From contig NZ_JNBA01000032.1 of NCBI RefSeq assembly GCF_000760295.1, positions 1 through 42,407 of the forward strand: 42,407 bases of DNA, read 5' to 3'. A program made the translations under genes and the position numbers. This document shows positions 49 through 23,703 of the stretch, piece by piece; positions within the stretch are counted from its first letter, which is position 1, and each line of letters opens with the position of its first letter. The notes beneath the pieces were generated by a model. It made no database searches, was not told where the DNA came from, and worked only from the letters and a program-made list of their open reading frames with translations. The stretch is from Prochlorococcus sp. MIT 0701. GTDB taxonomy: Bacteria > Cyanobacteriota > Cyanobacteriia > PCC-6307 > Cyanobiaceae.

Positions 49-149
49 TCCAAGTCTCAATCGCGTTACGGATCTTGGTGTGAAGCTGGCTGTGCTCTCA
101 GACGACGCGTGATTTAGTGATCAGTGGAATAACAGCTCTGAGGCTGTAG

Positions 150-10500: not shown

Positions 10501-10828
10501 ACCTTAAATTGCCAACATCTGAGTAAGCAGACATTGCGCTTAATGCCGCATCCTTTTCAGCTTGTGTCAAGTCTAAATTGTTTACATTTAAGTCAGGCGC
10601 AAGATCTGTTATATAAACGTCAAAAAGCTCCTTGAATTTATTGTTAACCGCGGCCCACTCTCCAGCCGGAGAAAAATGATACTCAATATCTACTATGACA
10701 TTGTTGTCAGGATCTAGATTCCCCCACTTGCCCCCATCTATCAGCCCTTTTATATATGCATTGCCTCCATTTAGTTCATCCCATGTGTTAACAGAATCTA
10801 ATACAATCTCTGGAGGATTTGGTTGCAT
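1550..10828 (-). CDS. Giant secreted RTX metalloprotease/adhesin with propellers, C-type lectin and dockerin-like loops (3092 aa)
   Basis: The N-terminal 250 residues form a serralysin (M10B) zinc protease: HEFGHALGLKHPH at 180-192 (zinc ligands H180, H184, H190, catalytic E181) and the Met-turn SVMTY at 240-244. RTX calcium nonapeptides follow (about 376-425, GGDGHDTIQGG type). Then come a cadherin-like domain (about 497-590), three Calx-beta-like repeats (about 600-920, each ending in INDTS-like motifs), a seven-bladed propeller of SBBP-type repeats (about 926-1353), six more Calx-beta-like repeats (about 1355-2030), a C-type lectin domain (about 2033-2165, WIGFSD ... YTNW ... DYGYIG ... 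LWDD), and a second seven-bladed propeller (about 2176-2569, DGSIYIAG core). A cohesin-like stretch (about 2570-2930) and two or three dockerin/EF-type calcium loops (about 2931-3004) close the protein. There is no Sec signal, which fits type I secretion as known for serralysins. No transporter genes lie nearby. It probably digests or binds external protein and glycan. The exact partners are unknown. Confidence 0.9.
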   Translation of the reverse strand: MQPNPPEIVLDSVNTWDELNGGNAYIKGLIDGGKWGNLDPDNNVIVDIEYHFSPAGEWAAVNNKFKELFDVYITDLAPDLNVNNLDLTQAEKDAALSAMSAYSDVGNLRFIENTDPDQFNNPANIQWSIVDDPNDGPGWGWITHPDALLSGLIQINRAYYDETTSQSLEPGGNNYLTYTHEFGHALGLKHPHATGGDGYGTPFPPFPGIENPTDEPTESGEWPPAWTDGGDNGLNATPWSVMTYNNNDANQYAPSLSDTNGYLTGIGAFDIAAIQYLYGPNQSNKTGDDTYSLDLNLNGFQSIWDAAGNDTIDASGATGSVTIDLRNATLENEPGGGGFVSQVDGELKGYTIAYNSTGNAVIENAKGSSFSDSIVGNDYHNAIQGGVGYDTIQGGDGHDTIQGGDNSDIIFGESGNDLIDGQAGFDTAAFSGNIGEYNLSLDGSSGAFQVADSSSLRGGDGTDQLLSSLRGGDGTDQLFNIERINFNGSTYDFPTDITLSASSFDENLAAGTAIVSLSATDPDSGNNHSFSFLSGAGSQDNSFFSISGNQLVINEAADYETKDSYSVRLQAKDTEGLAVAKSFTLGVNDLDDQQTYSLSTSADQVNEGQVLTSIISTSFVDPGTTIYWQLSGNNITEDDLEAGELEGSAQVNDQGRASFTNTLKLDRKTEGNENLQVKIYTDSARSSQVGNTASVAINDTSLDPSYTLSTSASQVNEGQQLTTTITTTEIDPGTTLYWQLSGNNITADDLEAGALEGSAQVDSQGKATFSHTLAEDRKTEGNEDLKVKIFTDSARTVQVANTASVAINDTSLDPTYTLSTSASQVNEGQQLTTTVITTNADPDATLYWRLSGRNITANDLEAGELEGSAQVDSEGKIIISQTFAEDHGTEGDETVKLKVFSDPARSNQVAESSNILINDTSTSIPLNTYKHHWTKLLDDHEATSLSSVATDRYGNVFITGTVDGSSFIRKYSSEGTQQWNNLFEITNASKETNAVTVAEDGNIHIAGTIRAGDDTDYKIEYEGETVKHVVRLGFISTHTSDGDLIWSKLINNTGEVGYISAPKDIHVDREDSIYVTGDFFVLGGNNSFISKYDSDGAFDWINLIGNDWAYDITSSLATDSDGQVYVSGTTTSSVLDGQNNHGVAADVFISSYTKDGDRSWTTLIGSAENEYGSVSVSVGFDDSLYVTGSTAGDMYGEQNNHSGIWSSKEDVFISKLTSEGHREWTRLLGGSPPDYGGQIDTYKDGSVVSAGSSWSFGDGMDVYISKIRSDGTGDFDSYNSELINGNYISTSASNTFSGAMSASRTQNTADMAIYEDGSIYLIGATEGNFNGETYSDDGKGYTGNQDFYLTKYSYEAGFEVTTSTTQTEEDQSFTISIESLDANSNSKVYWNLSGENIDIDDFAAGELDGDWTAQGNSSINLSYTLNNDQKTEGNEEIKFNLFSDEQRTELAAYPVSIEIVDTSKTPTYALTSSSTIIEEGKRLTTHVSTTNIDPGTELFWSLDGNNITKADLSEGNLEGSILIGALGKANFTHEFANDRKTELNENLEIKLFTDSLRDNQVGETLEIEIIDTSLTPTYSLFSSKESLQEGELLTSTINTTNLPSGTPIYWSLVGEAGDDITESDVNSGQLKGTEYLDSQGQATISHVIANDRESEGAERLRVKIFSDYQRTDEVAQSASIIIQDTSKSPAYSLTTTTTHLEEGDVVTTRVNTNYVDPGTELYWQISGNNIDQSDFSSGQLTGSGTVELTNNIETPDLAAEFSFSHTLAEDLKTEDLETFQIRLFSDPQRTQEVVEPRAIEVVDTSKEPLYQLTTSSKAIDEGDVLTTTVSTTYVEEGTELHWSLTGANINQDDLSDGQIQGSGQVDSEGKFIFSHTLAKDAKTEGDETLGIKLFTDAAHNQPVAGTTWAGIVADVQIRDTSQPPTYELTTSSSSIEEGQVLTTNVSTGFVEPGTELHWSVSGTGINQGDFEEGALTGSSQTDSEGKFSFSHTLRNDQTREGPESLDVKLFTDALRTEQVGNTATVEIKDTSMSTNYVRRGDSAYVIVDGPSWQEAEANAQSIGGNLVTINDAAKNQWLTENLSLKKWIGFSDYKVEGDWQWADRSGSTYTNWSGTNPDNSTASDPNGQDYGYIGESGLWDDGENPNWPGIAELQGIAEISLARSNPNITQSWEPPLAKQWTRLLGASYVSDQYLATGSDGSIYIAGDANFSLDGQTNSGSEDVFLTKYDPDGTKHWTQFLGPSDIQAYALETGSDGSIYIAGYSTVDLDGQTNSGSSDSLLIKYDSDGTKDWTQLLGTSSYEHAHAVTTFSDGSIYIAGITGGDLDGKPHSGRGDAFLTKYDPDGTKDWTNLLGSTSYDDARALTTGSDGSIYVAATLDFLPYLTKYNPDGTEVWTDTLSPNKNSSGNALTTGSDGSIYIAGSIYDDSNAYTIPPYSNLIGVKRYAFLDKYDPDGNKDWTQLLGTVSNNEANALTTGSDGSIYIAGYTLGNLDEKPYSGSRDAFLTKYDPDGNKEWTHLLGTASSDEATALTTGSDGSIYIAGYTAGNLDGQINNGSKDAFLSKYAPAYSLTPDSDLELSYSLHSINGTDTQTDLKQLAVLGDSVDWQDTYRLDITAKSLAAGYDLETADITINFDPFLFNEIKASDITIGGQLPIANAVRIDNDVGTIRIAAASLGDLVPGDLYGNHLADAGASIGADGGVLASIDLNFNEFRLDTLTQNSNGKILDPSTPLFFGLSANQDETVFSKDLTDASGLSNREIKSLRDLGGDLAVEGTKVTLYEATINLEEQGDGLILSSDLDIGSYNSKQTNLVRAGDTITATSEWTNVGNIQAKDIQITGLTNANASLTSSGFYISSPDDSQTSTDLESGSFVDGAFVQAGQETAQLVADIEITGAAGNVVDLSQGILSLQATGSDIFKNQKGSKNLITFQGDLNYDGRVSMKDLAYLNAGAARQQQASEDPDSVDANGDGFVDASVARGVDANFDGQISMADLAVLDADWGESLHQVAETSTDAFLGESEISWEQLDNQGTTGDTTWDNQAFKDQNAVEAGTDFVESLESSGTTGVIGGDGNSDSSDNDIAGDYFQDPLST
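9395..9472 (-). repeat. Two tandem 39-bp units inside the giant gene
   Basis: Two almost identical 39-bp units (9395-9433 and 9434-9472) encode two adjacent copies of a 13-residue block of SSLRGGDGTDQLL type around residues 454-478, just after the RTX region. They differ by about one base. The length is a multiple of three, so the frame is kept. The near identity suggests a recent duplication by slippage, which adds one RTX-like turn. Confidence 0.85.
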
Positions 10829-10848
10829 TACCTTTTGCCCCCGCTCAT
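10828..10848 (-). promoter_or_regulatory. Possible six-codon leader ORF coupled to the giant gene (TAATG)
   Basis: On the minus strand a tiny ORF reads MSGGKR and ends with TAA at 10830-10828. The last A of this stop is the first base of the giant gene's ATG (TAATG). A purine-rich GAGGGGAG lies just before the leader ATG, while the giant gene's own ATG has only a closely placed AAAAGG. Translation of the leader could therefore deliver ribosomes to the giant gene. This is an inference from layout only. Confidence 0.3.
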
Positions 10849-11470
10849 TAGCTCCCCTCTAGCCACTAGGTAATATCTCTCATCTAATATGCACTTCATT
10901 GCTTGCTGGCGGCGGATGATGTGATCCATACCCTCCAGAGCAACTCTTTATCAAATCACTGTCTGGTGTTTGATGGTGTGTTTCTTTTTAATTCTCTATC
11001 CAAGAAGCCAGACAAGAATCTTGGCAGTAGGTATTTAGCGCAGTCTTCTTGCGTCATATATGCACTAATGCGCCACTGCAGACCTAAAGCCCTCTATCCC
11101 AGGTAAAAACCCTTGGTACATGCTCTAGGTCAACGCAAGACAACCGCAGAGGCAACTAGTTCCACGCTCTTCGTGGATTGATCTTGGTGTTGTGGTTTCA
11201 GCTCTTCTGGCTGTAAGGGCTACCTACCTACAAATAACTAGGCATCTCTAAGCACACACACCTCCTAATGGCATCTCAAGGAATTGAACCTTGACTAGGC
11301 ACCAGCGATGCTTTTTTCTATAGCAAAGGACACAAGCAAGGTGTCACCTACAAAAGAAACTAAACCACTAAAGACTACCTCTGACCACTCGAACCACCAA
11401 GGGATCAACAGGCTCCGATATTTATGCCTCGGTAACGGGCAGTAGTCTACTGGTGGTCATATTGTTGGTC
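10849..11470. other. Gap upstream of the giant gene, hairpin-rich, no clear gene
   Basis: No convincing protein gene is visible. The stretch must hold the promoter of the giant minus-strand gene, but I cannot fix its position. Short perfect hairpins occur: TCCACG/CGTGGA at 11161-11177, a 5-bp stem with a 7-base loop at 11277-11293 that resembles a tRNA T-arm (listed separately), and CAGTA/TACTG near 11440-11456. Confidence 0.4.
11270..11293 (-). other. T-arm-like hairpin, possible tRNA 3'-end remnant (att site)
   Basis: Read on the minus strand the segment gives CAAGG, the loop TTCAATT, CCTTG, then AGATGCC and an A. That is a five-pair stem with a loop that fits the T-loop consensus TTCRANN, followed by seven bases where an acceptor strand would stand. 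No matching 5' acceptor, D-arm or anticodon arm is found at the right distance, so it is not a whole tRNA. Integrases of genomic islands commonly leave tRNA 3' ends at element borders, and a tyrosine recombinase gene lies 2.5 kb away. The call is tentative. Confidence 0.25.
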
Positions 11471-11638
11471 CTAACCTAAGAGGGCTTCAGCCGCACTGAA
11501 GTAGGAATCTCTAATGCTGTGCAATGTCCTACGGGTTTTACCCTTCTTGTAAGTATTTGCGTAGGCGTCAGCTCGTACAGCCTTCTTGATTAGAAAAGCT
11601 GCTACACGCTCTCTGCTTGTCAATTCTTGTGTTGGCAT
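11471..11638 (-). CDS. Small basic protein of 55 aa, function unknown
   Basis: An ATG at 11638 opens a frame of 55 residues that ends with TAG at 11471. The protein starts MPTQELTSRERVAAFLIKKA and goes on with a Lys/Arg-rich middle (YKKGKTRRTLHSIRDSY, about 28-44). It looks helical and strongly basic, which would suit nucleic-acid binding, but I recognise no family. A Shine-Dalgarno site is not evident. It lies on the same strand as the recombinase, ribbon-helix-helix-like and zinc-ribbon genes and may belong to that mobile module. It could also be a chance frame. Confidence 0.4.
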   Translation of the reverse strand: MPTQELTSRERVAAFLIKKAVRADAYANTYKKGKTRRTLHSIRDSYFSAAEALLG

Positions 11639-11750
11639 TGGATTACTGGGGATGATTAGAATGATTCTTTACTGGCTCTTCCAAAACAAATAACTCCTTT
11701 TATTAGGTATTCAAGTTGAGGAAATCCACCTTAAAGAGTAATATATACAG

Positions 11751-11878
11751 GCATACTTCGTATGCAATATATAGCCTTTAAGGCTGTTATACCTTCACTA
11801 GGCATTATAGATGCTAGGGTAAAAACCTTCTATATATATTAATTCGCTTCGCTCATACAAACACTGGGTTTTCCAGTG
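11751..11878. repeat. Cluster of four short hairpins
   Basis: Four inverted repeats follow each other within 128 bases: GCATAC/GTATGC at 11751-11765 (loop TTC), AGCCT/AGGCT at 11773-11785 (loop TTA), CTAG-CAT/ATGCTAG at 11798-11817 with one bulged G (loop TATAG), and CACTGG/CCAGTG at 11862-11878 (loop GTTTT). The surrounding gap (11639-12058) contains no gene that I can support. The cluster lies downstream of the minus-strand 300-aa gene and could be REP-like DNA, transcription terminators or a structured RNA. Confidence 0.6.
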
Positions 11879-12058
11879 CCTTCACTGAGGCGATTATTAG
11901 AGGGGCTATAGAACTCAGGAACCTTCAAAACCTGGAACTACGGGGACTCTTGCTGACTGTGCAGCGTTTTATCCTTCGTATAGGGCCCCCTCCCTTATTT
12001 TTCCCTGAGATTTCTTGTGTTAGAAGGGATCCCAGGGATAGGGGAGAGGGTACAAAAT

Positions 12059-12961
12059 TTAGAGTAGGTATTTATCGAGGATGTCATCCAGCCTTGTGTT
12101 GTGCCTCTTTGGGTGGGTGGTGAGTGTCACCTTGAGTGGTTCTGCGTTTGGTTTTGTTTCCCAGTTAATGACCATCTCTTCGATCTCTTTTTTTTCTTCC
12201 TCAGTCATTGGTTCCTCTAAGTCTTCGTATAGAGATGCGGCTCCCTCCCAGCAGGCCATATTCATCTGGAACTTAGCTAGGTCATAGTCGATACGGCCTG
12301 TGTCTAGATCAATTGCTTCAGCACTGTGCTCAAGCAGCCAATCATCCAACAGTGCATTTTCTCTCTCTTGGCGTTCAACAGCTTCGTCAAAGCTCTTCTC
12401 CTTTGCTGCATGTAGGGCTTTCAGAGTTGAGCCACCTTGTCTGTCTCTTCCCCCTGCATCCAGCCACTCTCTATTGAGTTGTTTCTGGCTGATCTTCTTG
12501 CTTTTTGTCAGGCTTCTGATGTCTCCTCTGCGGATTGATTCAGCCAACTCCAGGTAGTAATACCTCAAAGCTTCAGCTTCAGTGATCCTCCACTGTTCAG
12601 CGCCTTGCCGCAGCAATACACATTCACTTTCAGTAAGCCTGATCTGTAGCTCATGATTCCTTAGACCAGCTTCAATGCCTCTGTTAGCACCCATAAGTGC
12701 AGAGTGTGATCGGTGCCAAAGCACTGCGCTATCTTGCTCATACATGGCTATCCGTATCGCCTCAGAGCTGTTCTTGCATTGAAGAATGTTGGTTAAGCCT
12801 TCCAGGACTTGAAGCTCATTGTGAGTCATCCGGATGGTTTTCTTCTTGGTCTTCTTTTCTTTGTTAGTCCTTATCGGGTGTTTGGTCGTATCGAACCTAT
12901 GCTTATGGATAGGAAAATAAGTACCTAACGTGCCCTTATTGAACTTCTTATTCTTAGCCAT
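12059..12961 (-). CDS. Unknown 300-aa protein with two ribbon-helix-helix-like segments
   Basis: I do not recognise a named family. The N-terminal 42 residues are very basic (KEKKTKKKTIR at about 34-44). Residues about 42-76 (IRMTHNELQVLEGL ... SSEAIRIAM) have the strand-helix-helix pattern of ribbon-helix-helix DNA-binding proteins. A second similar segment occurs at about 105-140 (LQIRLTESECVLLRQG ... TEAEALRYYYLEL). The middle is charged and probably coiled-coil (about 180-215), and the C-terminus is acidic with an EEPMTEEEKKEIEEM stretch. A DNA-binding regulator or relaxosome-like accessory factor of a mobile element is the best guess. It shares strand with the recombinase 0.8 kb upstream. 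No clear ribosome binding site precedes the ATG. Confidence 0.65.
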   Translation of the reverse strand: MAKNKKFNKGTLGTYFPIHKHRFDTTKHPIRTNKEKKTKKKTIRMTHNELQVLEGLTNILQCKNSSEAIRIAMYEQDSAVLWHRSHSALMGANRGIEAGLRNHELQIRLTESECVLLRQGAEQWRITEAEALRYYYLELAESIRRGDIRSLTKSKKISQKQLNREWLDAGGRDRQGGSTLKALHAAKEKSFDEAVERQERENALLDDWLLEHSAEAIDLDTGRIDYDLAKFQMNMACWEGAASLYEDLEEPMTEEEKKEIEEMVINWETKPNAEPLKVTLTTHPKRHNTRLDDILDKYLL

Positions 12962-13130
12962 TTTTGGTTTGGTCGGTTCAGTCCTTTTGCAGGTTTAATG
13001 TCTCGGCAGGACAATACCTTCAGCAATGGATTCGATCCATCAGCTCTAGCTTTTTGTCGAAGATTAAATTGATTGATTTCTGTTTCCCTTCTATTAATAT
13101 TATAGGATACTTTTCAATCTAAAGTCAACC

Positions 13131-13323
13131 TTATTTGAGGATCTCCCTTAGATTATCCATGTAGATGCCAAGCTCAGCCTCTGGTAATCCTTGAGGGATT
13201 TTTCTTACAGCTTCTTTGAATTCAGCTTGTTTGCAGAGATAGCAAGGCTTAGTCAATTCCTTGTCGTTGAGGGCTACGTATGCCTTGCCGCAATTAGGAC
13301 ACTTTGTTTTTATAGATAATCAT
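13131..13323 (-). pseudogene. Zinc-ribbon small protein with a one-base frameshift near its start
   Basis: A strong Shine-Dalgarno (AAGGAG, complement of 13333-13338) stands nine bases before an ATG at 13323. The frame from that ATG reads only MIIYKNKVS and stops. Leaving out one A of the five-A run at about 13307-13311 gives a continuous frame of about 63 residues beginning MIIYKTKCPNCGKAYVALND and continuing with KPCYLCKQ, so two CxxC pairs 14 residues apart form a zinc ribbon. The ORF ends with TAA at 13131. The start overlaps the stop of the upstream 73-aa ORF as ATGA, which points to coupled translation. Either the gene is broken by a homopolymer indel, or slippage at the A-run makes the protein, or the base is a sequencing error. 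Confidence 0.65.
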
Positions 13324-13541
13324 GAGAGATAACTCCTTCCGGTGATAAGCGCAGCTGTATAAGTTTTCTTGGGGGCAAAGGTCTGGGAATTTTTAGAGTT
13401 AATTACTCGCAATTCCCCTCTCTTACGGGCATGACCAAACCGCACCCTCTCAGCAGCACCTAGAAGCGCCTGCAACACACTTGAAAAGCAGCCGCGTCTA
13501 CCAGGCGTAAATCGGGGCTTTTGTTCGCTACAGGCCCTCAT
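13320..13541 (-). CDS. Small basic ORF of 73 aa coupled to the zinc-ribbon gene, function unknown
   Basis: The frame reads MRACSEQKPRFTPGRRGCFSSV at its start and is rich in Arg and Lys. I see no domain. It ends with TGA overlapping the ATG of the zinc-ribbon gene (ATGA), which argues that it is translated. Its own ATG sits in the loop of a perfect AGGCCC/GGGCCT hairpin (13532-13549), and no Shine-Dalgarno is obvious, so translation might be low or controlled. It could be a chance frame. Confidence 0.35.
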   Translation of the reverse strand: MRACSEQKPRFTPGRRGCFSSVLQALLGAAERVRFGHARKRGELRVINSKNSQTFAPKKTYTAALITGRSYLS

Positions 13542-13800
13542 AGGGGCCTCTCAGGATTTGAAATCTTTTGGCTTTTAGATTAGCTGAGCTTATTGATTAT
13601 TGGGTTGTTGTGGTTCCTCTTGTTAACCAGTCCACCCAAATCAATGGGCGTTTCTCCTTAAGCAACAGGGATCAAATCAAGGAGCGTTTTTCTTGTATAC
13701 ATGTCGGACCAAAACTCACCCCTAGAAGCCCCTGCAATAAGCCTCTGCTATCTACACGCTGATTCTACCTATTTAACATTTAGGCGCCTTCTGGCTCCTC
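13542..13800. other. Gap between the 73-aa ORF and the recombinase gene
   Basis: About 260 bases with no gene that I can support. A plus-strand frame starting at 13701 begins with a plausible MSDQNSPLEA but then runs antisense through the 3' end of the recombinase gene, so I do not call it. Confidence 0.4.
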
Positions 13801-14976
13801 CTATACACCTCTCTGTGCCCAGCTGTCTAATACCTTCCACACCTTCTCTGCTTCTCTACGTAATAACTCCTCTGGGTATTGCCCATAAGTCATCGACATC
13901 TGACTACCTGCAAAGTGTCCAAGGATCCGCTCAACTGTAAACTCCTCAGCACCTGCTAATCGTGCTGCTGTTCTGTATCCGTGTCTGAAACTATGGGGGG
14001 TTAATTCATCGTGTGGTCTCAGCTTATTGAAGTGTCTTCTAAACGTCTGAGCATGGACTTCCACAACACCTTTACTTTTAACAAGTATTCCCTTAGTCCG
14101 TTCAGCTAGCTCCTCTGGAATCGGTACCTCCCTAATGCTCGCCTTGTTCTTTGGCTTCCAGTCTAGGGTAGGTCTAATGATTAATTTATTAGTTTCAATT
14201 GTACAGTTAAGCGCTTCTCCGATCCTTACGCCTGAGAATATCAATAATTGAAGGATTGCCCTTTGTCTAGGGGCTAGATTCCCTCTTTGAGCCCACATGT
14301 ATTGATAGTCTTCTGGCTTAGCTTTATACAAATGCCTTGTTGAGGCAGCACTCGTATCAACTCGATCAAAGGGGTTGGTGAACTCATCATCTGTAAACCC
14401 ACCCTTGATGAGAGATGAAATTAGATTCGATAAACCACTGGCTCTACAGGCAATGGTTAGTGGGCTTAATCCCTGAGCTTCCATTCTCTCAACCATCTCC
14501 CTTACATCTGCTGTCTTGACTGATAGTGGGCCAGCCTTAACAGCTCTTGCTGGTAGTGCCCTCAGGCCCGCCTCAACGTTCTCTTTCCAGCTCTTACTTA
14601 CCTCTCCACCCCTCTTCCTTTGATGCCTCTTTGCAGCGATCTCAATAGCCTTATCCCAGTTGATCCCTCCTACTACCTCCTCTACTTCTAGGTCTACTTC
14701 TTCTTCATTGAATAGGTTTATTGCACGTGTGGTCGCAACCCTTTCCTTTCCTGTATCTGGATCTAGCTCTGTATACGTGATGGGTTCAAACCACTTGTAC
14801 TTAGTTGGGTCTGCAATCCTCTCTAGCTCTGCTTGAGCCTCAGGCCATCTTCTTAGTGCCTCTGATCTGATCTTGGTCTTAAGGCTGATGTGATGCCTCT
14901 TCCCTTTGATCATCTTCACTGCATACCAATAGCCGGAACTATCGATACGCCGTGGTCCTGTTGCTGCTCTAGGCAT
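13801..14976 (-). CDS. Tyrosine recombinase/integrase (391 aa)
   Basis: The C-terminal half carries the full tyrosine-recombinase catalytic set: Arg251 in FSGVRIGEAL, a candidate Lys near 276-278, HSFRHG with His328 and Arg331, LGHF with His354, and the nucleophile Tyr364 (or Tyr367) in SMTYGQYP. Residues about 105-215 form a SAM-like core-binding domain, and the N-terminal about 60 residues resemble an arm-type DNA-binding domain (SSGYWYAVKMIKGKRHHI). The length is usual for island or phage integrases. The gene begins three bases after the stop of a 59-aa acidic ORF, so both are probably one transcript. It probably inserts or excises the surrounding element, with a tRNA gene as the likely target. 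The initiator tRNA gene at 17.3 kb is the nearest candidate. Confidence 0.93.
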   Translation of the reverse strand: MPRAATGPRRIDSSGYWYAVKMIKGKRHHISLKTKIRSEALRRWPEAQAELERIADPTKYKWFEPITYTELDPDTGKERVATTRAINLFNEEEVDLEVEEVVGGINWDKAIEIAAKRHQRKRGGEVSKSWKENVEAGLRALPARAVKAGPLSVKTADVREMVERMEAQGLSPLTIACRASGLSNLISSLIKGGFTDDEFTNPFDRVDTSAASTRHLYKAKPEDYQYMWAQRGNLAPRQRAILQLLIFSGVRIGEALNCTIETNKLIIRPTLDWKPKNKASIREVPIPEELAERTKGILVKSKGVVEVHAQTFRRHFNKLRPHDELTPHSFRHGYRTAARLAGAEEFTVERILGHFAGSQMSMTYGQYPEELLRREAEKVWKVLDSWAQRGV

Positions 14977-14979
14977 GAA

Positions 14980-15159
14980 TTAATTATCAGGTTCAACTTC
15001 ATCGGTGTTTTCATATGCTTCCGGGAAGCCTCTGACTGCTTCTTCAAACGTCTTGTAGATCTCAGGCAATGGCATTCCCTTGTCTTCGTATAAAGCAGCT
15101 AAGACCTCAAGGTGTTGGGTGGTGAGGGCTAATAGCTCTAGAGATGCAAGGTCGTCCAT
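14980..15159 (-). CDS. Small acidic protein of 59 aa in operon with the recombinase
   Basis: An ATG at 15159 opens a 59-residue frame ending with TAA at 14980, three bases before the recombinase ATG. The protein begins MDDLASLELLALTTQHLEVL, is predicted mainly helical, and ends in an acidic tail (YENTDEVEPDN). I recognise no family. The tight spacing suggests co-transcription and a role linked to integration, for example a directionality factor or regulator, but excisionases are usually basic, so the acidic character argues against direct DNA binding. No strong Shine-Dalgarno is seen. Confidence 0.55.
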   Translation of the reverse strand: MDDLASLELLALTTQHLEVLAALYEDKGMPLPEIYKTFEEAVRGFPEAYENTDEVEPDN

Positions 15160-15257
15160 AGTCGTGACGTTGATGAGTCAGTGCGTTTGACAAGTTTAGA
15201 CCAGTGACTCTGACAGTGATCTAATGCTGATCTGCCTTTTAGAAGCTCTTAGAGCCT

Positions 15258-15655
15258 AATCCAACTATGGCCACTACAGCAGGCTGCAATCAGACGGGAT
15301 CAGTGAATGGAGCCCTGCCTTTTTAAAGCTATCGGCAACGCTCGATGGATGTGCCAATCGCTATGAGCTTTTCTGCCAGCGCTATCGCCATCACGGCAAA
15401 GCTGCTCCCAAGTGCCACTGGGGCTCACGGATGCTGAAGCGATTTGTTCAGAGCAGCAGGAGCAACAGAAGCAAGAGAAATCGAATATCACCAGGCCAAC
15501 AACGATTGCCATGGGATTGGGATGTTCGCCTCAATCAAATCCCTGAGGATTGGCATCAGGTTGCGGTGAGATTTAGAAAAACAAATGGAATCAGAGATGG
15601 AGATCAAACTCTCAGACTGTGGTGATTAAGTTAGGGATATAAGTAGTTTTAGAGT
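15258..15655 (+). pseudogene. RAYT C-terminal remnant A
   Basis: Translation from about 15260 gives SNYGHYSRLQSDGISEW, then QRYRHHGKAAPKCHWGS, PGQQRLPWDWDVRLNQIP and a stop at 15623-15625. This continues the RAYT pattern exactly where the gene at 150-629 breaks off (DPYSN). An in-frame TAA at 15257-15259 stands where the family has a Tyr, and no catalytic N-terminal half remains, so this is dead. It is a direct repeat of remnant B at 16.5 kb, roughly four-fifths identical by eye, and the similarity runs about 30 bases past the stop. Confidence 0.75.
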
Positions 15656-16036
15656 CAAAGAAGTTGAAGGTAAATTTGTGATGAATGCCAAGAACTATTG
15701 CTGATTGATGCCTGCTGAACAAGACATGAAGGCAACTTGTCGAAAGTCAATGGTGCCAGGCATTGGATAACTTTTTTGTGATTCGAGAGTGATTTAAGAA
15801 ATAAAAAACCCCTGCTAATACAAGGGCTGTGAGTGTGTAGTTCTGTGTTGTTTAACATATCGCGACAGCGACAGCGGTTCCTATTTGATTTCTTCGGATC
15901 TTCTGGGCAGACATTTTCAGATCCGACATTCTTCCGCTATGCAGATCCCTCCTATGATCGAACAGGCAGGTCAGCATGTTGCCTCATTTCTCCCAGCTGT
16001 TCTTAACGGTCCCGAATGGTTGCCAATGGTTGAGTG
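15656..16036. other. Gap downstream of the lanthipeptide precursor gene
   Basis: About 380 bases without a supported gene. It contains a terminator-like hairpin for the minus strand at 15803-15828. I see no second leader peptide, synthetase or transporter fragment. Confidence 0.4.
15803..15828 (-). terminator. Likely rho-independent terminator downstream of the lanthipeptide precursor
   Basis: On the minus strand AGCCCTTG and CAGGGG can pair as a short GC-rich stem and are followed directly by six Ts. It is about 210 bases after the stop of the precursor gene, the only minus-strand gene that reads into it. Confidence 0.5.
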
Positions 16037-16393
16037 TTAAGTGTTCCTGTTCACCCAGAAAGTTCGATCATGATCGGTCTTACATAAGTCACCATCAGTC
16101 CTCTTAGTCACCATCCTGTTCACCTTCCAGTCGAAGTGTTGCAATGATGATCGATTCCAACAGCCCCGGCAACCATCTGTATTGCCAGGATAACCCCCAG
16201 CCACACCTTCCAGTTCACTGTCCGAAAGTTCAGCATTAAACCAGCTCTTAAAATCATCGGCAGAAATCATAAAACCTGCTTCTTTTGCAATCGCAGTCAC
16301 TGCATCAACATCAGCAGCGGCTTTGAGCTGTTCCAGAAGGCTGGTGTCGGCTTTGACTTTTTCAAGGAACGCTTTGAGTTGTTCTTCTGACAT
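16037..16393 (-). CDS. procA: Nif11-leader lanthipeptide precursor (prochlorosin/ProcA-like) with a long core
   Basis: The first 67 residues are a typical Nif11-type leader: MSEEQLKAFLEKVKADTSLL at the start, AIAKEAGF, the SADDF element, and ELSDSELEGVAGG ending in the double-glycine cleavage site at 66-67. Prochlorosin precursors share this leader, and ProcM then dehydrates Ser/Thr in the core and joins them to Cys. The core here is 51 residues (68-118), longer than the roughly 13-32 of most known prochlorosins. It holds three Cys (75, 78, 104) and several Ser/Thr, so up to three lanthionine rings are possible. No LanM or LanT gene is in the window. The gene lies between two direct-repeat RAYT remnants on the opposite strand. 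The gene symbol marks family membership only, and the core may have been lengthened by frameshift. Confidence 0.85.
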   Translation of the reverse strand: MSEEQLKAFLEKVKADTSLLEQLKAAADVDAVTAIAKEAGFMISADDFKSWFNAELSDSELEGVAGGYPGNTDGCRGCWNRSSLQHFDWKVNRMVTKRTDGDLCKTDHDRTFWVNRNT

Positions 16394-16465
16394 TGGTTGT
16401 TGGGTCGATTTTTAATATGTGTAGCCCAACCCAAGCTTGAAGACTGCAAGCATCGATTGAATTGA

Positions 16466-16861
16466 ATGAAATTTCCACATTCCACAAGAGCTGGATAGCA
16501 GAGGGCATCAGTGAATGGCACCCAACCTTTTTAAAGCTCTCGGCAACGCTTGATGGATGCTCCAAGCGCTATGAGCGTTTTTGCCAGCGCTATCGCCATC
16601 ACAGTAAAGCTGCTCCCAAATGCCACTGGGGTAGTCGCAAACTTAAACGGCTGGTGAGCAGTGCAAGAACTAGAAGTAAGAAGAAGAGGGTTTCACCAGG
16701 TCAACAACGATTGCCTTGGGCTTGGGATATTCGCCTCAATCAAATTCCAGAGGAGTGGCATCAACTTGCCATGAAATTTAGAAAGGCAAATGGAATCAGA
16801 GATGGTGATATTCAGTTCACGTTCTGAGAGTGAATTCAGGAGATATAGGTATTGGCTAGAG
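16466..16861 (+). pseudogene. RAYT C-terminal remnant B
   Basis: The frame reads ISEWHPTFLKLSATLDGC, RYERFCQRYRHHSKAAPKC, PGQQRLPWAWDIRLNQIP and stops at 16825-16827. It matches remnant A at 15.3 kb in the same orientation and lacks the HxH and Tyr nuclease half. An open frame does start at 16462, but upstream of ISEW it is shifted relative to remnant A, so the ATG is probably fortuitous. It begins about 70 bases upstream of the lanthipeptide precursor gene, which is transcribed the other way. Confidence 0.75.
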
Positions 16862-17269
16862 GCGAGAAGTTGATGGTTAGCTTTTCAGTAGCGCATGACT
16901 ATGTTCCAGACGGGCTTGTAGTCGAGGACCCCGGATTACATAGTTCCGTTTCTTCCTGACCATCCGGAACCGACACCTAGAGGTAACGAGAGCGTTGGCT
17001 CGGTGTCGAACTCGTCGAGCTTCTTCTGCGTTCCTTTTGGCATTTTTTCGACCCCCGTAGCTGATGTGGCACTAACTTGAGAGGTACACCTCGAAATGTT
17101 CGGCAGTGAACATTTTGAAGGCTGTTTCCCCTCGCTTAAGTGTATCGGGAACGGACGTCACTCTGGTAGTTGCCTACCAGACCTACGGTGAGCATTGGCG
17201 TGTTTTATGTCCTATTAGGAACAGTTTGCTCGCTCCTGTCAGTTTTAGAACTTCCTAGTCCAGGACATT
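16828..17269. other. Gene-free gap with a hairpin-rich, possibly structured RNA region (16931-17181)
   Basis: No protein frame fits here. Several strong inverted repeats follow one another: CCGGAT/ATCCGG (16931-16936 with 16962-16967; alternatively GTTCCG/CGGAAC), CGACACC/GGTGTCG (16971-16977 with 17002-17008), GAGG/CCTC (17081-17092), a ten-pair stem around AAATGTTC/GAACATTT (17092-17117, one G-T pair, loop of six) and a perfect TCTGGTAG/CTACCAGA (17062 region excluded; 17162-17169 with 17174-17181, loop TTGC). I looked for the conserved motifs of RNase P RNA, SRP RNA and tmRNA and did not find them. It could be an unknown ncRNA or a group of REP-like palindromes linked to the neighbouring RAYT remnant. 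Confidence 0.5.
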
Positions 17270-17291
17270 AAAAAACCCCTCAGAGAGGGGC
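17270..17291 (-). terminator. Terminator of the initiator tRNA gene, probably bidirectional
   Basis: CCCCTC (17276-17281) pairs with GAGGGG (17285-17290) around a three-base loop. On the minus strand the stem is followed by six Ts, right after the tRNA 3' end. On the plus strand it is followed by CTTTT, so it could also stop transcription coming from the accessory side. Confidence 0.85.
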
Positions 17292-17298
17292 TTTTAAG

Positions 17299-17375
<77 letters not shown>

Positions 17376-17423
17376 GTGACCCTCAAAAGCATACCTTTTG
17401 AGGCTGTCCAACCTGGTCTTTGT

Positions 17424-18407
17424 TTAGGTTTCCTGGTATCGCAGAGCGCCGGCCACTTCCAGCTGCACACCTGGAGCAATGAGCAACACCTGTTCCTCTA
17501 ATTCTTGCAGTCCGGTTGGGGTGAGCCAATCAAGTTGGCGAAGTAGGTGGAGCGCTACAGCATGTTTTGCTCGTTTGGATCCGTCTTCTACTTTGATCGC
17601 TACACCCATCCCTTCACCAACGCGGCTTAGACATTGGACACCTTCTGCTCCACCCTTGCTCACGATTTGTCCGTGAGCTCGTCGCATGAGCTCAGTGTCA
17701 AATCGGCCTTCCCCTGCTACGAGTTCAGGATGGGCCAGCATTGCCCTAATTACTTGTTCCATTTCTGCCTGACGTGATGCCCCGAGATGGGCATAGAGCA
17801 GAGCTATTTGGTCTAGCCGTAGGCGAAGGGTTGGAGCTCCACAGTCATCCCGGGCAGCTACGAGCTCGTCGGCCGGTAGCCCAAGCAGTTCGGCTATGCG
17901 TCGATTCACTTCGACTTGCAGAGGATGGTTGCCTTGCAGGTATGAATCAAGGGGCCAACCCATTTTCTTGCTCGTCGCAAGAAAGCCAGCATGTTTCCCG
18001 GAGCAGTTGTGCTCTAGCGGGCTCGTGCCTCCTGTTGGAATCGGGCATTGCAGCAGGCTTGGGTCTAGCTCGGCATTCCAAAGCAACCTGAAGGCTTCGC
18101 GGGCATGGGCGGCTGTCCCTGAATGGGACCCACAGCAGATTGCCAATCCTTTTTCCCCACAGTTCATTTGCTCTGCTGCGCCACTACTCAACAATGGCAG
18201 TGCTTGAAAGGGTTTTAGAGCTGAACGGATGAAGGTTTCAAAGTCTGCACAGCCCGCTCGCATCAGGATGCGCCCACGCCCATCGCAAACCACAGCATGG
18301 ACGCGATGGATCGACTCCACGCTGGAGCCACGCTTAAGGCTTACTTCAAGAGGCGTTGTGCTCGAACGCTGTGAGCTTCCGAACCAGGTTGGAAGATTCA
18401 TGCTCAA
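17424..18407 (-). CDS. Asparaginase II family (L-asparaginase, PF06089-type)
   Basis: The 327-aa protein matches the thermolabile rhizobial-type asparaginase family rather than the E. coli enzymes. Family motifs are visible: a FETFIRSALKPFQALPL segment (about 56-72), CCGSHSGTAAH (about 91-101), HNCSGKHAGFL with the Ser-Lys pair (about 132-142), DDCGAPTLRLRL (about 187-198) and SKGGAEGVQC (about 250-259). It would hydrolyse asparagine to aspartate and ammonia in the cytosol. The length is normal. It is followed downstream only by the tRNA gene, and about 150 bases separate it from rsfS on the same strand. Confidence 0.9.
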   Translation of the reverse strand: MSMNLPTWFGSSQRSSTTPLEVSLKRGSSVESIHRVHAVVCDGRGRILMRAGCADFETFIRSALKPFQALPLLSSGAAEQMNCGEKGLAICCGSHSGTAAHAREAFRLLWNAELDPSLLQCPIPTGGTSPLEHNCSGKHAGFLATSKKMGWPLDSYLQGNHPLQVEVNRRIAELLGLPADELVAARDDCGAPTLRLRLDQIALLYAHLGASRQAEMEQVIRAMLAHPELVAGEGRFDTELMRRAHGQIVSKGGAEGVQCLSRVGEGMGVAIKVEDGSKRAKHAVALHLLRQLDWLTPTGLQELEEQVLLIAPGVQLEVAGALRYQET

Positions 18408-18557
18408 GCAGACTTTTAGGCTTCAGAGAGCCTGGCAGAGACGCGCCCCCTTTGATGATGAGGCTTGTGATGAAGTCCATGGTTGGTGCCAAATAACTAA
18501 GCAATGGAACTTCGAGTTGGTGTTAATTGCTACTAATTCAAAGTGGTGTTTTAACTC

Positions 18558-18938
18558 TCAGGATGCTTTAGAGAGATCCGAGCTCATGAAGCCGTGATGC
18601 TTTCCATGACTCCAGAAGGCTTCCAGGTCGTAAAAGCCTCGTTCGCTTGGCTGTAGAACATGCACGATTAATTCGCCGTAATCGAGCAGAGCCCATTTGC
18701 CTTCATTGAGACCTTCGCTTCGCAATGGCAATCGATCGGCTTCTAGCTCAATGCGGTCTTGCACAGATTTGGCAATTGCTCGTACTTGGACTTCAGACAG
18801 TCCTCCGGCAATCACCATCCAGTCCGCCAGGCTGGAAACCTCATCGATACGGATCAGTTGAATGTCTGTAGCTTTGCGATCGTCGCAGGCTTCAGCGGCC
18901 ATTTCTGCTAGCTGTTCACTATCCATAGACGTTCTCAC
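18558..18938 (-). CDS. rsfS: Ribosomal silencing factor RsfS (Iojap family)
   Basis: The 126-aa protein has the RsfS/DUF143 pattern: AAEACDDRKATDIQLIRIDE, SSLADWMVIAGGLSEVQVRAI (about 35-55), KWALLDYGELIVHVL (about 82-96) and YDLEAFW. RsfS binds ribosomal protein uL14 and blocks subunit joining when growth slows. Its start overlaps the end of the upstream DUF3318-like gene: by 20 bases if the first ATG is used, 8 if Met5 (base 18926) is the true start. The two genes are probably co-transcribed. Confidence 0.92.
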   Translation of the reverse strand: MRTSMDSEQLAEMAAEACDDRKATDIQLIRIDEVSSLADWMVIAGGLSEVQVRAIAKSVQDRIELEADRLPLRSEGLNEGKWALLDYGELIVHVLQPSERGFYDLEAFWSHGKHHGFMSSDLSKAS

Positions 18939-19554
18939 TGCTTACGGATTGGCGAGATCCTTCCTGTTCAGCCATCTCTGCTCGAGCTTTGCCAGCACTT
19001 TTTCTAAGGGCTTCCAATCGATCTTCATAGAAGCTGCGCTTCTTCTTTTTGCGGGTTTGTTCCACAAGCTCCTTTAGAGCACCGCCGAGGCTCTTGTAGG
19101 CATTCGGCACGCTGTAATTAAAACGACAGGCCAGATCGATGGCCCTTTCATCGGCAGCGATTGCATCCTGAAGCCGCTTTTCAGAGTTGTTCTTTAAATA
19201 GAGCCGATATCCAGCGAAGCCCGAAAGACCCAGGGCCATTAGTAGCAACAATCCGTCTTGAACCCAGAGTTCACCGATTGCACCGCCAAGGCCGATGGCG
19301 AGAGCAGCCATTTCCCAGCCATCGCGTGGAATGGTGTCGTTCTGGACTCGACCGACTTCATGCCAAAACAGCAAGTTGCGATGGTCGAGCGCGAGGTTGT
19401 CCCATTGTTCGAGATCGATTTGGATCTCGACCTCATCACGTCCTATTTCCTCGAGGGTGATGAGCGGTGGATCTACCGCTGCTGCCGCCTCCACGAACAC
19501 CCAGCTCTGCATCTCTGGCGGCAGCTGCCCCTTAAGGCGCTGGAGTTCGCTCAT
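18919..19554 (-). CDS. Cyanobacterial DUF3318-like membrane-associated protein
   Basis: The 211-aa protein fits the cyanobacteria-specific DUF3318 family. It begins MSELQRLKGQLPPEMQSWVF and has a conserved LDHRNLLFWHEVGRVQNDTIPRDGWE block at about 76-101. A hydrophobic stretch at about 83-117 (MAALAIGLGGAIGELW ... LLLLMALGLSGFAGYRLYL) may form one or two membrane segments. The C-terminal third is a basic helical or coiled-coil region (RKKKKRSFYEDRLEALRKS). HEVGR resembles a metalloprotease HExxH only loosely and lacks the second His. The function is unknown, and it is linked to rsfS by overlap. Confidence 0.75.
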   Translation of the reverse strand: MSELQRLKGQLPPEMQSWVFVEAAAAVDPPLITLEEIGRDEVEIQIDLEQWDNLALDHRNLLFWHEVGRVQNDTIPRDGWEMAALAIGLGGAIGELWVQDGLLLLMALGLSGFAGYRLYLKNNSEKRLQDAIAADERAIDLACRFNYSVPNAYKSLGGALKELVEQTRKKKKRSFYEDRLEALRKSAGKARAEMAEQEGSRQSVSSENVYG

Positions 19555-19674
19555 GGTCTTGATCTCTCTCCGTACTCATCAAGCTAGCGACTACATGGCG
19601 CCTGGGTGTTTTTCCTGAGCTATCTCTGACGTTGCGTGGGAAGCTAGTCGCGTTTGGCCAATACCTGAAATTCC

Positions 19675-22600
19675 ATGCCCCGTAGGTCTGATCTGCGTCG
19701 CATCCTGCTGCTGGGGTCAGGTCCGATCGTGATTGGCCAGGCCTGTGAATTTGATTATTCCGGCACTCAAGCATGCAAGGCCTTGCGTGATGAGGGTTTT
19801 GAGGTGGTGCTGGTGAATTCCAATCCGGCCTCAATCATGACGGATCCGGAGATGGCTGATCGCACCTATATCGAGCCGCTCACACCCGAGGTAGTGGCTC
19901 GTGTCATTGAGTTAGAGCGTCCTGATGCGTTGCTGCCAACCATGGGCGGCCAGACGGCTCTTAATTTGGCGGTGGCATTGGCTGAAAATCACACACTCGA
20001 ACGTTTCGGCGTTGAGTTGATCGGTGCAGATCTAGACGCAATTCGAAAGGCTGAAGATCGTCAGCTGTTTAAGCAGGCGATGGAGCGCATAGGCGTCAAT
20101 GTTTGCCCTTCAGGGATTGCTTCCAGCCTCAAAGAGGCAGAAGACGTTGGTGAAGTGATCAATAGTTTTCCGCGCATTATTCGACCGGCCTTCACTCTTG
20201 GTGGCAGTGGTGGTGGCATTGCTTACAACCCAGAAGAATTTGCAGCGATCTGCAAAAGCGGTCTAGATGCCAGCCCTGTTTCTCAGATCTTGATCGAAAA
20301 GTCTTTGTTGGGTTGGAAGGAGTTCGAGTTAGAGGTAATGCGTGATTTGGCGGATAACGTTGTGATCGTCTGTAGCATTGAAAATGTCGATGCGATGGGT
20401 GTGCATACAGGAGATTCAATCACCGTTGCCCCTGCACAAACTCTTACCGACCGTGAGTATCAGAGGCTTAGGGATCAGTCCATTGCCATTATTCGTGAGA
20501 TAGGTGTTGCTACAGGGGGTAGCAATATTCAGTTCGCTATCAATCCAGATGATGGCGAGGTGGTTGTTATTGAAATGAATCCGCGCGTTAGTCGATCATC
20601 AGCGCTGGCAAGTAAGGCCACGGGTTTTCCAATTGCCAAGATTGCTGCTCGTCTTGCTGTGGGTTATACCCTCGACGAAATCATTAACGACATCACGGGT
20701 AAGACACCAGCCTGTTTTGAACCCACAATTGATTATGTCGTCACTAAGATTCCACGATTTGCGTTTGAGAAGTTTAAGGGCAGTCCTGCTGTCCTCTCTA
20801 CGGCAATGAAGTCTGTGGGAGAGGCTATGGCGATCGGTCGCTGTTTCGAAGAGTCTTTTCAGAAAGCGATGCGTTCTCTGGAAATCGGGCGGGCTGGTTG
20901 GGGTTGTGATCGTCAGGAGCCAGAACTTACTCCTACAGAAATTGAGCGTTTGTTGCGCACACCTTCTCCTGAGCGGATCATGGCAGTGCGAACAGCGATG
21001 TTGGCCGGACGCAGTGACCATGATATTTGCGCTTTGAGTAAGATTGATATTTGGTTTTTAGCCAAATTACGCCATCTGATCAACACTGAGATAACGCATC
21101 TGTATGGGCATAAATTAGATGAATTGGATGAGGAATGTCTTCTCTGCTTAAAGCAGCTTGGCTATTCCGATCGTCAGATTGCTTGGGCGACAGGTTCTGA
21201 GGAGCTCGATGTACGTGCTCGTCGTGAACTGTTAAATATCAAACCTGTTTTTAAGACAGTCGATACTTGCGCTGCTGAATTTTCATCAACTACTCCATAT
21301 CATTATTCAACTTATGAGCGGCCCCTGTACCGCCTTGATTCTGATGACCAATTGTATAAACTTGAACCAGAAAGCGAGGTCGTTACAGACAGTCGCTCAA
21401 AAGTGATGATTCTTGGCGGCGGTCCTAATCGCATCGGCCAAGGAATTGAGTTTGACTATTGCTGCTGCCATGCTTCATATGCAGCTCAGGATCAAGGATT
21501 TGTCACTGTGATGGTTAACAGTAATCCCGAAACTGTCTCTACTGATTATGACACTAGTGACAGACTTTATTTTGAACCTCTTACTCTTGAAGATGTACTG
21601 AATGTTATCGAGGCTGAACGCCCAAATGGTGTCATCGTTCAGTTTGGTGGTCAGACTCCACTCAAGTTGGCAATTCCCTTGCTTCGTTGGCTAGAGAGTT
21701 CGATCGGACAGTCAATAGGCACTCGTATATGGGGTACATCACCAGAATCAATTGATCAGGCTGAAGATCGTGAACAGTTCGAGGCGATCTTGCGGCAACT
21801 TCAGATTCGCCAGCCTCGTAATGGCTTAGCTCGTAGTGAAGAAGATGCTCGAGCCGTAGCAGTTCGCATTGGTTATCCCGTTGTCGTTCGTCCCTCTTAT
21901 GTGCTTGGAGGCCGAGCCATGGAGGTGGTGTTTGATGAACAAGAATTGAATCGCTATATGGCTGAAGCGGTTCAGGTCGAACCCGATCATCCAGTGCTCA
22001 TTGATCAGTATCTGGAAAATGCTGTCGAAGTTGATGTTGATGCTCTCTGTGACTCTGATGGGGTTGTAGTGATTGGCGGTTTGATGGAACACATTGAGCC
22101 TGCTGGAATTCACTCTGGTGATTCCGCTTGCTGCCTTCCCACCATCTCTCTTGGTGAGCAAGCCCTTCGTACGATTCGTCTCTGGAGTGAAGCGTTGGCC
22201 CTTGCTCTCAAAGTTCAGGGGTTGATCAATTTGCAGTTCGCTGTCCAGCGAGATGAAGCGGGTGATGAGCAAGTGTTCATCATCGAGGCCAATCCTCGCG
22301 CTTCTCGTACTGTTCCTTTTGTGGCTAAAGCCACAGGAGTACCCCTGGCCAGGATCGCCACTAGGCTCATGGCAGGTGAGACGTTGGCGTCTGTTGGACT
22401 TAGAGATGAGCCTCAACCAGCTCTTCAGTCTGTCAAAGAAGCTGTATTGCCATTCCGTCGTTTCCCTGGGGCCGATTCGGTACTGGGCCCGGAAATGCGA
22501 TCCACTGGAGAAGTGATGGGTTCAGCCTCGAGTTTTGGCATGGCGTTTGCCAAGGCTGAAATTGCTGCTGGTGAGGCTTTACCAATTCGTGGAACAGTCT

Positions 22601-22983
22601 TTCTTTCAACTCATGATCGGGACAAGCCAGCATTAATACTTGTCGCTGAACGGCTGATTGAACTTGGTTTTGATCTCACGGCCACATCCGGAACTGCTCA
22701 AGCCCTTAATCAGGCTGGATTGAACGTTCAGCCAGTACTCAAGGTTCATGAGGGACGTCCCAATATTGAGGATTTGATTCGCTCTGGTCAGATTCAGTTG
22801 GTGATCAACACACCTATTGGCCGTCAGGCCGCTCATGACGACAAATATCTGCGACGAGCAGCTCTTGATTACTCCGTGCCTACCCTTACGACGATTGCTG
22901 GAGCACGTGCTGCTGTCGAGGGAATCACGGCACTCCAGCAACAGTCACTATCCGTAGCTGCCCTTCAGGACATCCATGTTTGA
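19675..22983 (+). CDS. carB: Carbamoyl-phosphate synthase large subunit
   Basis: The 1102-aa protein is full length for CarB. Two homologous halves are clear: the first opens with [20 protein letters not shown] and the second (about 575) with [19 protein letters not shown]. Each has an ATP-grasp core with EMNPR or EANPR metal-binding motifs (first half [19 protein letters not shown], second half [19 protein letters not shown]). The C-terminal MGS-like domain starts near residue 950. It makes carbamoyl phosphate from bicarbonate, ATP and ammonia from CarA for pyrimidine and arginine synthesis. CarA is not in the window. The ATG at 19675 lies 120 bases from the divergent DUF3318-like gene, so a shared divergent promoter region is likely. 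Confidence 0.98.
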
Positions 22984-23019
22984 CAACCCATTAGGGTTTG
23001 CTCAATTGAAGTTCTTGCC

Positions 23020-23703
23020 GTGATCGCTAACGCTTCTCCTATCGTTTTGGCTCCTGGTAGTGATTGTCGAGAACTATTTCAGGCAGCCTATGAGAATCGC
23101 TACACCTGGGATCCGGTCTTTTCTGGTTATCGGGGTCGATGTCTCTGGGTAAAGGATGATCGCGTCGTGGAAGGGCGGTTTGAATTGGGAGCGGATCTCA
23201 AGGCTCATGTTGACGGTATAGAAGATGAATTGATCTCTAAGGCTGTCTCTTCCCAGCTATGGGAAGTTGCGATTCATCGAGTGCGACGCAGTTTTGAAAA
23301 GACCCATGCTGAAAACACTTTTACCGCAGGGGACAACGATGAAGTTGGTTTGGAAGTGATCGTTGGAGGGAAAAATGTTGGTGATCGTTATCGCATCAAA
23401 AATGATGTGGTGACGATGGTTCATCGCCATATTCACGGAACTGTGGTAACCATTTTTACAAAAAGCACGACGAATACAGGCTATGGCTACCTAAGTCATA
23501 CTTACAGCAGTCAATACCACGATCCGAAAACGAACGAACCTACCAGTGGTATGAGTCAGTTCACTGATACTTTTGTGCCCTTGGCTGATGATGGCTTATG
23601 GGTATTGAGTGAGAGGCTAGTGGAAAAAGATTCTTTTGCTGGAATAGCTGCTGAACGGCAATTATTTCAGTTTGTAGATCTTAAGCTGCTACAAAATGAG
23701 TGA
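23020..23703 (+). CDS. Cyanobacterial DUF3386-like protein
   Basis: The 227-aa soluble protein resembles the DUF3386 family found in oxygenic phototrophs, with the N-terminal AYENRYTWDPVFSGYRG block (about 23-39), NDVVTMVHRHIHGTVV in the middle and a STTNTGYGYLSHTYSSQYHD stretch (about 147-166). It starts at a GTG 36 bases after carB, so read-through from carB is likely. No signal peptide or membrane segment is seen. The function is unknown. Confidence 0.75.
   Translation: MIANASPIVLAPGSDCRELFQAAYENRYTWDPVFSGYRGRCLWVKDDRVVEGRFELGADLKAHVDGIEDELISKAVSSQLWEVAIHRVRRSFEKTHAENTFTAGDNDEVGLEVIVGGKNVGDRYRIKNDVVTMVHRHIHGTVVTIFTKSTTNTGYGYLSHTYSSQYHDPKTNEPTSGMSQFTDTFVPLADDGLWVLSERLVEKDSFAGIAAERQLFQFVDLKLLQNE

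Follow-up and report, generated by a model that had tools for sequence, protein, structure and literature searches.

Dozens of procA genes can depend on one synthetase, which raises the question of how they arise. Direct repeats, IS copies included, are known to cause duplications and deletions through unequal crossing over, and Cubillos-Ruiz et al. reportedly found in 2017 that procA cores diversify by indels. An association of procA with TnpAREP has already been the subject of a preprint, cited by title in PMC10783134, and the pairing of procA with RAYT genes is therefore not new; as far as this title tells, the preprint deals with the same gene pair in the same organism group as here. In PMC6006769, a Y---NP signature and an HUH motif define class 2, RAYT / TnpAREP. 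Tycheposons are presented in PMC10872708 as tRNA-linked elements with tyrosine recombinases.

The locus described here lies in a window of 42,407 nucleotides (the whole stretch of DNA that was analysed) from Prochlorococcus sp. MIT 0701. I compared it with the rest of its host genome (G000) and with a sister genome (G001, a single contig of 2,410,873 bp), within a comparison set of one genome per species; the RAYT screen covered 121 genomes of the family. The locus itself and its border comprise the following features.

15255–15625, plus strand: RAYT 'remnant A', the C-terminal half (codons about 140–260) of a split RAYT, 79% identical (467/588, 3' region included) to a G001 RAYT
15744–15840, minus strand: 3' terminator block of procA, a hairpin then a T run, which alignment also places behind many other procA coding regions; it is also the far end of the RAYT A homology
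16037–16393, minus strand: procA-like lanthipeptide precursor of 118 aa, an open reading frame matching TIGR03798 (2.6e-23) and PF07862 (6.8e-17)
16394–16498, no strand: spacer from the procA start to RAYT B, with homologous spacers in seven procA units of G001
16499–16827, plus strand: RAYT 'remnant B', a C-terminal part (codons about 150–255) truncated at a junction common to other procA units, within the 93.5% block orthologous to G001
17299–17375, minus strand: tRNA-Met at the island border, whose 3' part recurs between G001 units

With a probability of roughly 70%, I read this locus as one unit of a repeat array, in which recombination between RAYT pieces adds or removes procA and indels in the core then rewrite the peptide. 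In such an array, RAYT-like C-terminal pieces would alternate with an oppositely oriented cargo gene, in this case procA, and would provide the direct repeats. When a B-type piece underwent homologous recombination with an A-type one, the intervening procA would be gained or lost as a unit of ~1 kb, and after a duplication, core indels, including a frameshift that extends the frame into the counterpart of the other copy's 3' UTR, would yield a new peptide fast, with the leader unchanged. In the window, the A copy would in addition have been split by a 14.7-kb stretch carrying a tyrosine recombinase.

The cargo gene has the expected layout of a ProcA precursor. In the profile search it scored 82.1 bits against TIGR03798 (cut-off 32.3), and its translation reads as a Nif11 leader of residues 1–67, terminating in the double glycine of VAGG, followed by a 51-aa core with Cys, Ser and Thr. 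A LanM-type synthetase is encoded in both genomes, with one PF13575 match in G000 (contig C7) and one in G001. From leader, core residues and genomic LanM, the gene is predicted to be a Nif11-leader lanthipeptide precursor (procA). Its terminator motif, allowing up to 3 mismatches, is found at 21 places in G001 and 13 in G000, compared to 2 and 1 for reversed-pattern controls, with some of the 2- and 3-mismatch places not next to any procA. The leader class of the window gene differs from that of its G001 ortholog, procA1; the region upstream is orthologous, and the switch lies in the first bases of the gene, suggesting that recombination also occurs inside the cargo, using the leader.

The identity of the flanking pieces was established through their relatives. 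A search of G000 with the B protein returned 36 rows, one of which is A, at 77% identity (E 5.5e-58), and 33 RAYT rows were obtained in G001; the copies in both genomes are mostly fragments. Two open full-length relatives in G000, of 260 and 261 aa, match PF01797 (Y1_Tnp) at E 1.4e-13 and 1.1e-13, and it is the alignment to the 260-aa protein that places A at codons 140–260 and B at codons 150–255. Both pieces are without the Y1_Tnp/HUH catalytic half, and on their own they matched no Pfam or NCBIfam model at E ≤ 0.1, so that the name 'RAYT C-terminus' depends on the full-length alignments. The family shares with RAYT / TnpAREP (class 2 HUH Y1 transposases) the Y1_Tnp domain, found as PF01797 in four full or N-terminal copies, the HUH motif (NHLH) and the Y---NP signature (YIHANP). 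Two full-length copies scored 61.7 and 55 bits with the NCBIfam RAYT equivalog NF047646, below its cut-off of 80, and a PDB sequence search with one full RAYT gave no match at 0.01. Unlike RAYT / TnpAREP genes, which have low copy number, the copies here are many and mostly truncated.

The earlier note on this DNA had described procA as bracketed by same-strand RAYT-like C-terminal pieces, with the precursor on the other strand. This geometry is confirmed, and the coding coordinates agree within about 35 bases. The open frame of B runs from 16462 to 16827, but RAYT homology begins only near 16499, the preceding part being the spacer common to other procA genes. A repeat search returned two ungapped direct-repeat blocks, 15291–15423 / 16499–16631 at 88% and 15451–15604 / 16656–16809 at 81%, so that A and B are 81–88% identical over 287 nt at an offset of 1205–1208 bp. 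Their longest common exact run is 21 bp. With identity of this order and no longer exact run, the pair makes a poor substrate today, on which recombination would probably still be possible. The spacer junction aligns in eight units (the window and seven in G001), and one old junction copied together with procA is therefore preferred over eight separate landings. Three breaks fall close together near RAYT codons 140–155, namely those of window A, of contig C23 and of the shared spacer junction; codons about 140–155 were considered as an insertion hot spot and rejected, since the match ends, judged from the list, are spread along the gene. In G000 C23 (40088–42719), a RAYT is interrupted by about 1.6 kb with a ~168-aa frame, containing two tandem Nif11 leader matches, and a 202-aa ORF.

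Both pieces had been called remnants. B is a truncated piece; A corresponds to the 3' half of a RAYT that another element seems to have interrupted, and the 5' half lies near the start of the window.

84–597, plus strand: 5' half of RAYT A plus upstream region (ORF 150–629, the HUH/Y1_Tnp part), 92% identical over 514 nt to the contiguous G001 RAYT; PF01797 1.6e-14
586–597, plus strand: left copy of a 12-bp core at the split-RAYT junction; these 12 bases of the intact RAYT are present in each half
598–15254, no strand: the 14.7-kb stretch between the RAYT halves, a putative integrated element; the RAYT is contiguous in G001 and split in the window
13801–14976, minus strand: tyrosine recombinase of 391 aa in the 14.7-kb stretch, PF00589 1.2e-7, about 280 bp from the right junction
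15255–15266, plus strand: right copy of the 12-bp core, with one mismatch to the left copy

The homology of A starts at 15255, passes the coding end at 15625 and continues to 15840 through the procA terminator; over this whole interval, it is 79% identical to the 3' part of the contiguous G001 RAYT. The shared 12-bp core and the contiguous RAYT ortholog in G001 point to integration of the 14.7-kb stretch as the event that split A, the formal alternative being two separately truncated RAYT copies instead of one. Relatives of its integrase at E ≤ 1e-30 are found in its own genome and in two others among the 121. With Tycheposons, as PMC10872708 presents them, the region shares a tRNA-Met border and a nearby tyrosine recombinase. 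The recombinase is present, but the junctions of the 14.7-kb stretch fall in, and interrupt, a RAYT, whereas Tycheposons are integrated at tRNA genes. The stretch also encodes a 3092-aa protein (1550–10828, minus strand) with propeller, C-type lectin, RTX, cadherin and dockerin matches, and contains a weak RAYT C-terminal fragment in the opposite orientation, at window 1398–1517 (minus strand, E 8.1e-5).

To see how general the association is, procA and RAYT rows were counted in both genomes. For these counts, the 36 Nif11 rows of G001 were reduced to 30 by removing six weak or partial ones, and its 33 RAYT rows to 30 pieces by joining; in G000, 20 Nif11 rows became 13, with six weak ones removed and two C23 rows joined. 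Enrichment of RAYT fragments at procA loci over random loci, which the earlier note had predicted, is found in G001: seven of nine procA loci have a RAYT piece at 1 kb or less, for a random mean of 0.42 and a random maximum of 4 in 5000 placements, a placement blind to islands. More than half of the G001 RAYT pieces (16/30) are near procA. Of the procA-RAYT pairs no more than 1 kb apart, 28 of 28 in G001 and 7 of 7 in G000 have their members on opposite strands, and the same holds for a second cargo, a beta-barrel family (7/7 in G001, 15/15 in G000).

That procA and RAYT debris merely occupy the same islands would be suggested by the concentration of both in islands, by G000, where only 5 of 13 procA rows are near a RAYT, and by the G001 procA at 277831, whose nearest RAYT is on the same strand, 1.8 kb away. 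Such a coincidence is nevertheless very improbable, given the opposite strands in all 57 pairs within 1 kb (procA and barrel, G000 and G001; the pairs are not independent), the spacing of 77–79 bp in four loci, the common junction sequence, and the same alternating array in another genus (G050, contig C143).

G001 carries what looks like the trace of one clear recombination event. Window 16347–23733 is collinear with G001 905499–898120 at 93.5%, a match that begins in the flanking genes and extends across tRNA-Met and RAYT B to the first procA bases. From there on, the window continues with procA and RAYT A, and G001 with procA1, a RAYT piece (c2), procA2 and a full RAYT. Piece c2 is a mosaic, passing from B-type to A-type. 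Read from the procA2 side, it equals c1, the ortholog of B, at 315 of 319 positions, over the spacer and about two thirds of the RAYT piece itself; further on it equals window A, with exact runs of 62 and 85 bp, and then the 3' flank of the next full RAYT, with an exact run of 184 bp. The switch falls in a 23-bp stretch identical in both parents, which corresponds to one feature of the window.

15488–15510, plus strand: 23-bp stretch matching, by sequence, the exchange interval of the G001 mosaic RAYT

With c1 and window A as parents, the exact run statistic for the c2 mosaic gives p 9.4e-28, non-coding flanks included. I extended the mosaic test to 25 RAYT copies from three genomes, chosen for covering the C-half, shorter pieces such as c4 and c7 being left out. 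Using C-half coding columns only, 18 of the 25 copies are mosaic at Bonferroni level, among them c2, window A and window B, in a count that omits triplets with at least 130 informative sites and for which weak triplets were prefiltered; 19 of the 25 had a triplet below 1/20000. When evolution without recombination was simulated four times, the number of mosaic copies was 0 of 25 in every run. For c4, a neighbouring RAYT piece, the single triplet tried showed no mosaic signal (p 0.27).

The leaders of the two G001 precursors are identical at 197 of 198 positions and their 3' ends nearly so, while core plus 3' end, aligned over 211 columns, show 44 gap columns and 9 mismatches. Indels and a frameshift set the cores apart, with one core reading through what is the 3' UTR in the other. 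Both this pattern and that of c2 would be expected from a single unequal exchange, B-type with A-type, if the core indels came afterwards. Unequal crossing over produces an additional unit whose joint carries a mosaic repeat; this is seen in G001 and not in the window, and the G001 event was probably an unequal crossing over of the RecA type. It was also probably a gain in G001, not a loss in G000, since c1 and c2 are more alike than the orthologs are, which makes gain the simpler reading. With one genome per species compared, neither a deletion product nor a polymorphism within a population was seen. The tract beside the c2 switch matches window A and not the present full RAYT of G001, and a later exchange or conversion must therefore be assumed.

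This last point also fits a different account, gene conversion without change in copy number, in which both G001 units were already present and were merely homogenised: mosaic tracts are expected from conversion too, and the full RAYT beside c2 looks converted afterwards. I consider it rather unlikely, because the similarity is unbroken through RAYT, spacer and leader and resumes in the 3' UTR and terminator, and because the flanks are exchanged as unequal crossing over predicts. As in duplications between IS or other direct repeats, a mosaic repeat marks the joint and one unit has probably been gained. Unlike in those cases, the repeat is a truncated transposase gene running into the terminator of the cargo, and the core of the cargo differs by indels. 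If dead transposase fragments supply the homology, and cores change by indels soon after copying, both steps are directly testable in cultured strains.

The earlier note had proposed that recombination between the RAYT copies removes or duplicates procA as a unit. The G001 duplication, with its mosaic joint, supports this for one case, but as a general route the proposal is not supported: 11 of 17 close procA pairs in G001 have no RAYT between them, at periods of 336–503 bp, and the growth of such compact arrays must depend on homology of another kind, for instance in the leader or terminator. RAYT pieces lie directly on both sides, within 1 kb, for only 6 of the 30 G001 procA genes, and on neither side for 14. 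Nor does exchange between local repeats explain the long-distance scattering of procA that had been attributed to it. The mechanism is supported by one clear event and by common mosaicism, and is not the sole route of procA expansion. Beyond the reported association, it may be new that the joint is a mosaic, that the A copy is split, that most of the tested RAYT copies are mosaics and that a collinear slot holds another cargo (described below), and the preprint may hold part of this; the available portions of PMC10783134, PMC2817692, PMC6006769 and PMC10872708 contain no argument from a mosaic joint.

At the island border, an asparaginase-like gene is followed by tRNA-Met in all 42 related loci that continue for at least 200 bp past it, out of 45 loci examined from 80 retrieved. 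None of these 45, 41 of which have at least 2.4 kb beyond the gene, contains RAYT or procA at E ≤ 1e-4, and Rfam at the gathering threshold gave nothing besides tRNA for window 10000–20000. In G001, five further tRNA-Met 3' fragments recur between larger units (908292, 911022, 912278, 916306 and 918009), indicating a further influence on the array, through integration or larger duplications at this tRNA. One could therefore suppose that integrase-driven accretion, that is repeated site-specific integration at tRNA-Met leaving tRNA 3' fragments, added the units, and the recurring fragments, the tyrosine recombinase gene in the window and the related loci devoid of RAYT and procA would all agree with this. 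Yet the joint of the ~1-kb procA1/procA2 repeat lies inside a RAYT, with no tRNA fragment there, and no recombinase was seen, by eye, among the G001 array ORFs of at least 75 aa; as the source of these units, accretion is quite unlikely.

The RAYT family itself may have been mobile. It was found at E ≤ 1e-15 in 13 of the 121 family genomes, and G077 has nine full-length copies, of which the four in the stretches translated have convergent barrel-like partners. Open full-length RAYTs with HUH and Y---NP motifs in G000 and G001, and RAYT pieces at 18 loci in G001, are likewise what would be expected if an intact RAYT moved itself, perhaps together with a convergent procA or barrel gene, the C-terminal pieces being decayed landing products. 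RAYT / TnpAREP genes are flanked by inverted GT[AG]G REPs. Here the flanks were viewed by eye, and seven of ten aligned G077 copies share a left flank of about 80 bp starting with a hairpin, as an element end might have. The other three, however, share a different flank, six aligned G000/G001 copies show at least three further ones, and there is hence no single left end but several; in six RAYT copies, homology to the reference begins only at about codon 6 or later. Several procA-linked pieces also share the old truncation junction and spacer, which argues for copying of whole segments and not for repeated landing, the catalytic half is missing from A and B, and mosaicism is common. RAYT-catalysed mobilisation is for these reasons an unlikely explanation of the locus. 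Part of the family may nonetheless move, or have moved, as an element, and transposition is a serious rival for the dispersal of the pieces, though not for the c2 joint, for which I retain recombination between RAYT pieces. The hairpin in the common G077 flank resembles one found after two G000 procA genes (C1, C36). Two N-terminal RAYT pieces of G001 (1038522–1039031 and 1040916–1041425), 2.4 kb apart, have equal score, identity and break.

The beta-barrel family has equal geometry, and 14 of the 36 G000 RAYT rows are near a barrel gene compared to 6 near procA. RAYT pieces are thus neither specific to procA nor required for procA arrays. The profile matches of the barrel family are uneven, with IAT_beta below its cut-off in several members, OMP_b-brl just above the cut-off in one, and one member without a match. 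In the genome G002, contig C81 has 1480 nt at 89% to G001 907391–908864 and then a barrel gene (1558–2535) where G001 has procA, the break from collinearity falling inside the RAYT; with the contig ending at 3358, exchange and an inserted unit look alike here. In three translated stretches of G077, where a LanM match was not found, four full-length RAYTs and one truncated RAYT each have a convergent gene 64–75% identical to a G000 barrel, and RAYT-barrel may be an older pair than RAYT-procA.

It is tempting, if still tentative and short of even odds, to extend the recombination reading to the whole genome. RAYT C-terminal pieces and the terminator would then form homology brackets, integrase-free slots in which genes for secreted peptides (procA) and for surface barrels are duplicated, deleted or, from one collinear slot to another, swapped by homologous recombination, with procA cores subsequently rewritten by indels. 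Because these brackets also hold the barrel family, two classes of exported product may be shaped in this way.

In G001, at 1004681, 1009501 and 2180376, three procA genes have a piece of the barrel N-terminus (within codons 2–49) 77–82 bp upstream on the same strand; these procA genes look as if they had taken over barrel promoters. In G077, at 2434500–2444500, a tandem duplication of ~4.9 kb comprises a sulfotransferase-like ORF (named by the look of its sequence), a 195-aa ORF, a full RAYT and a barrel gene.
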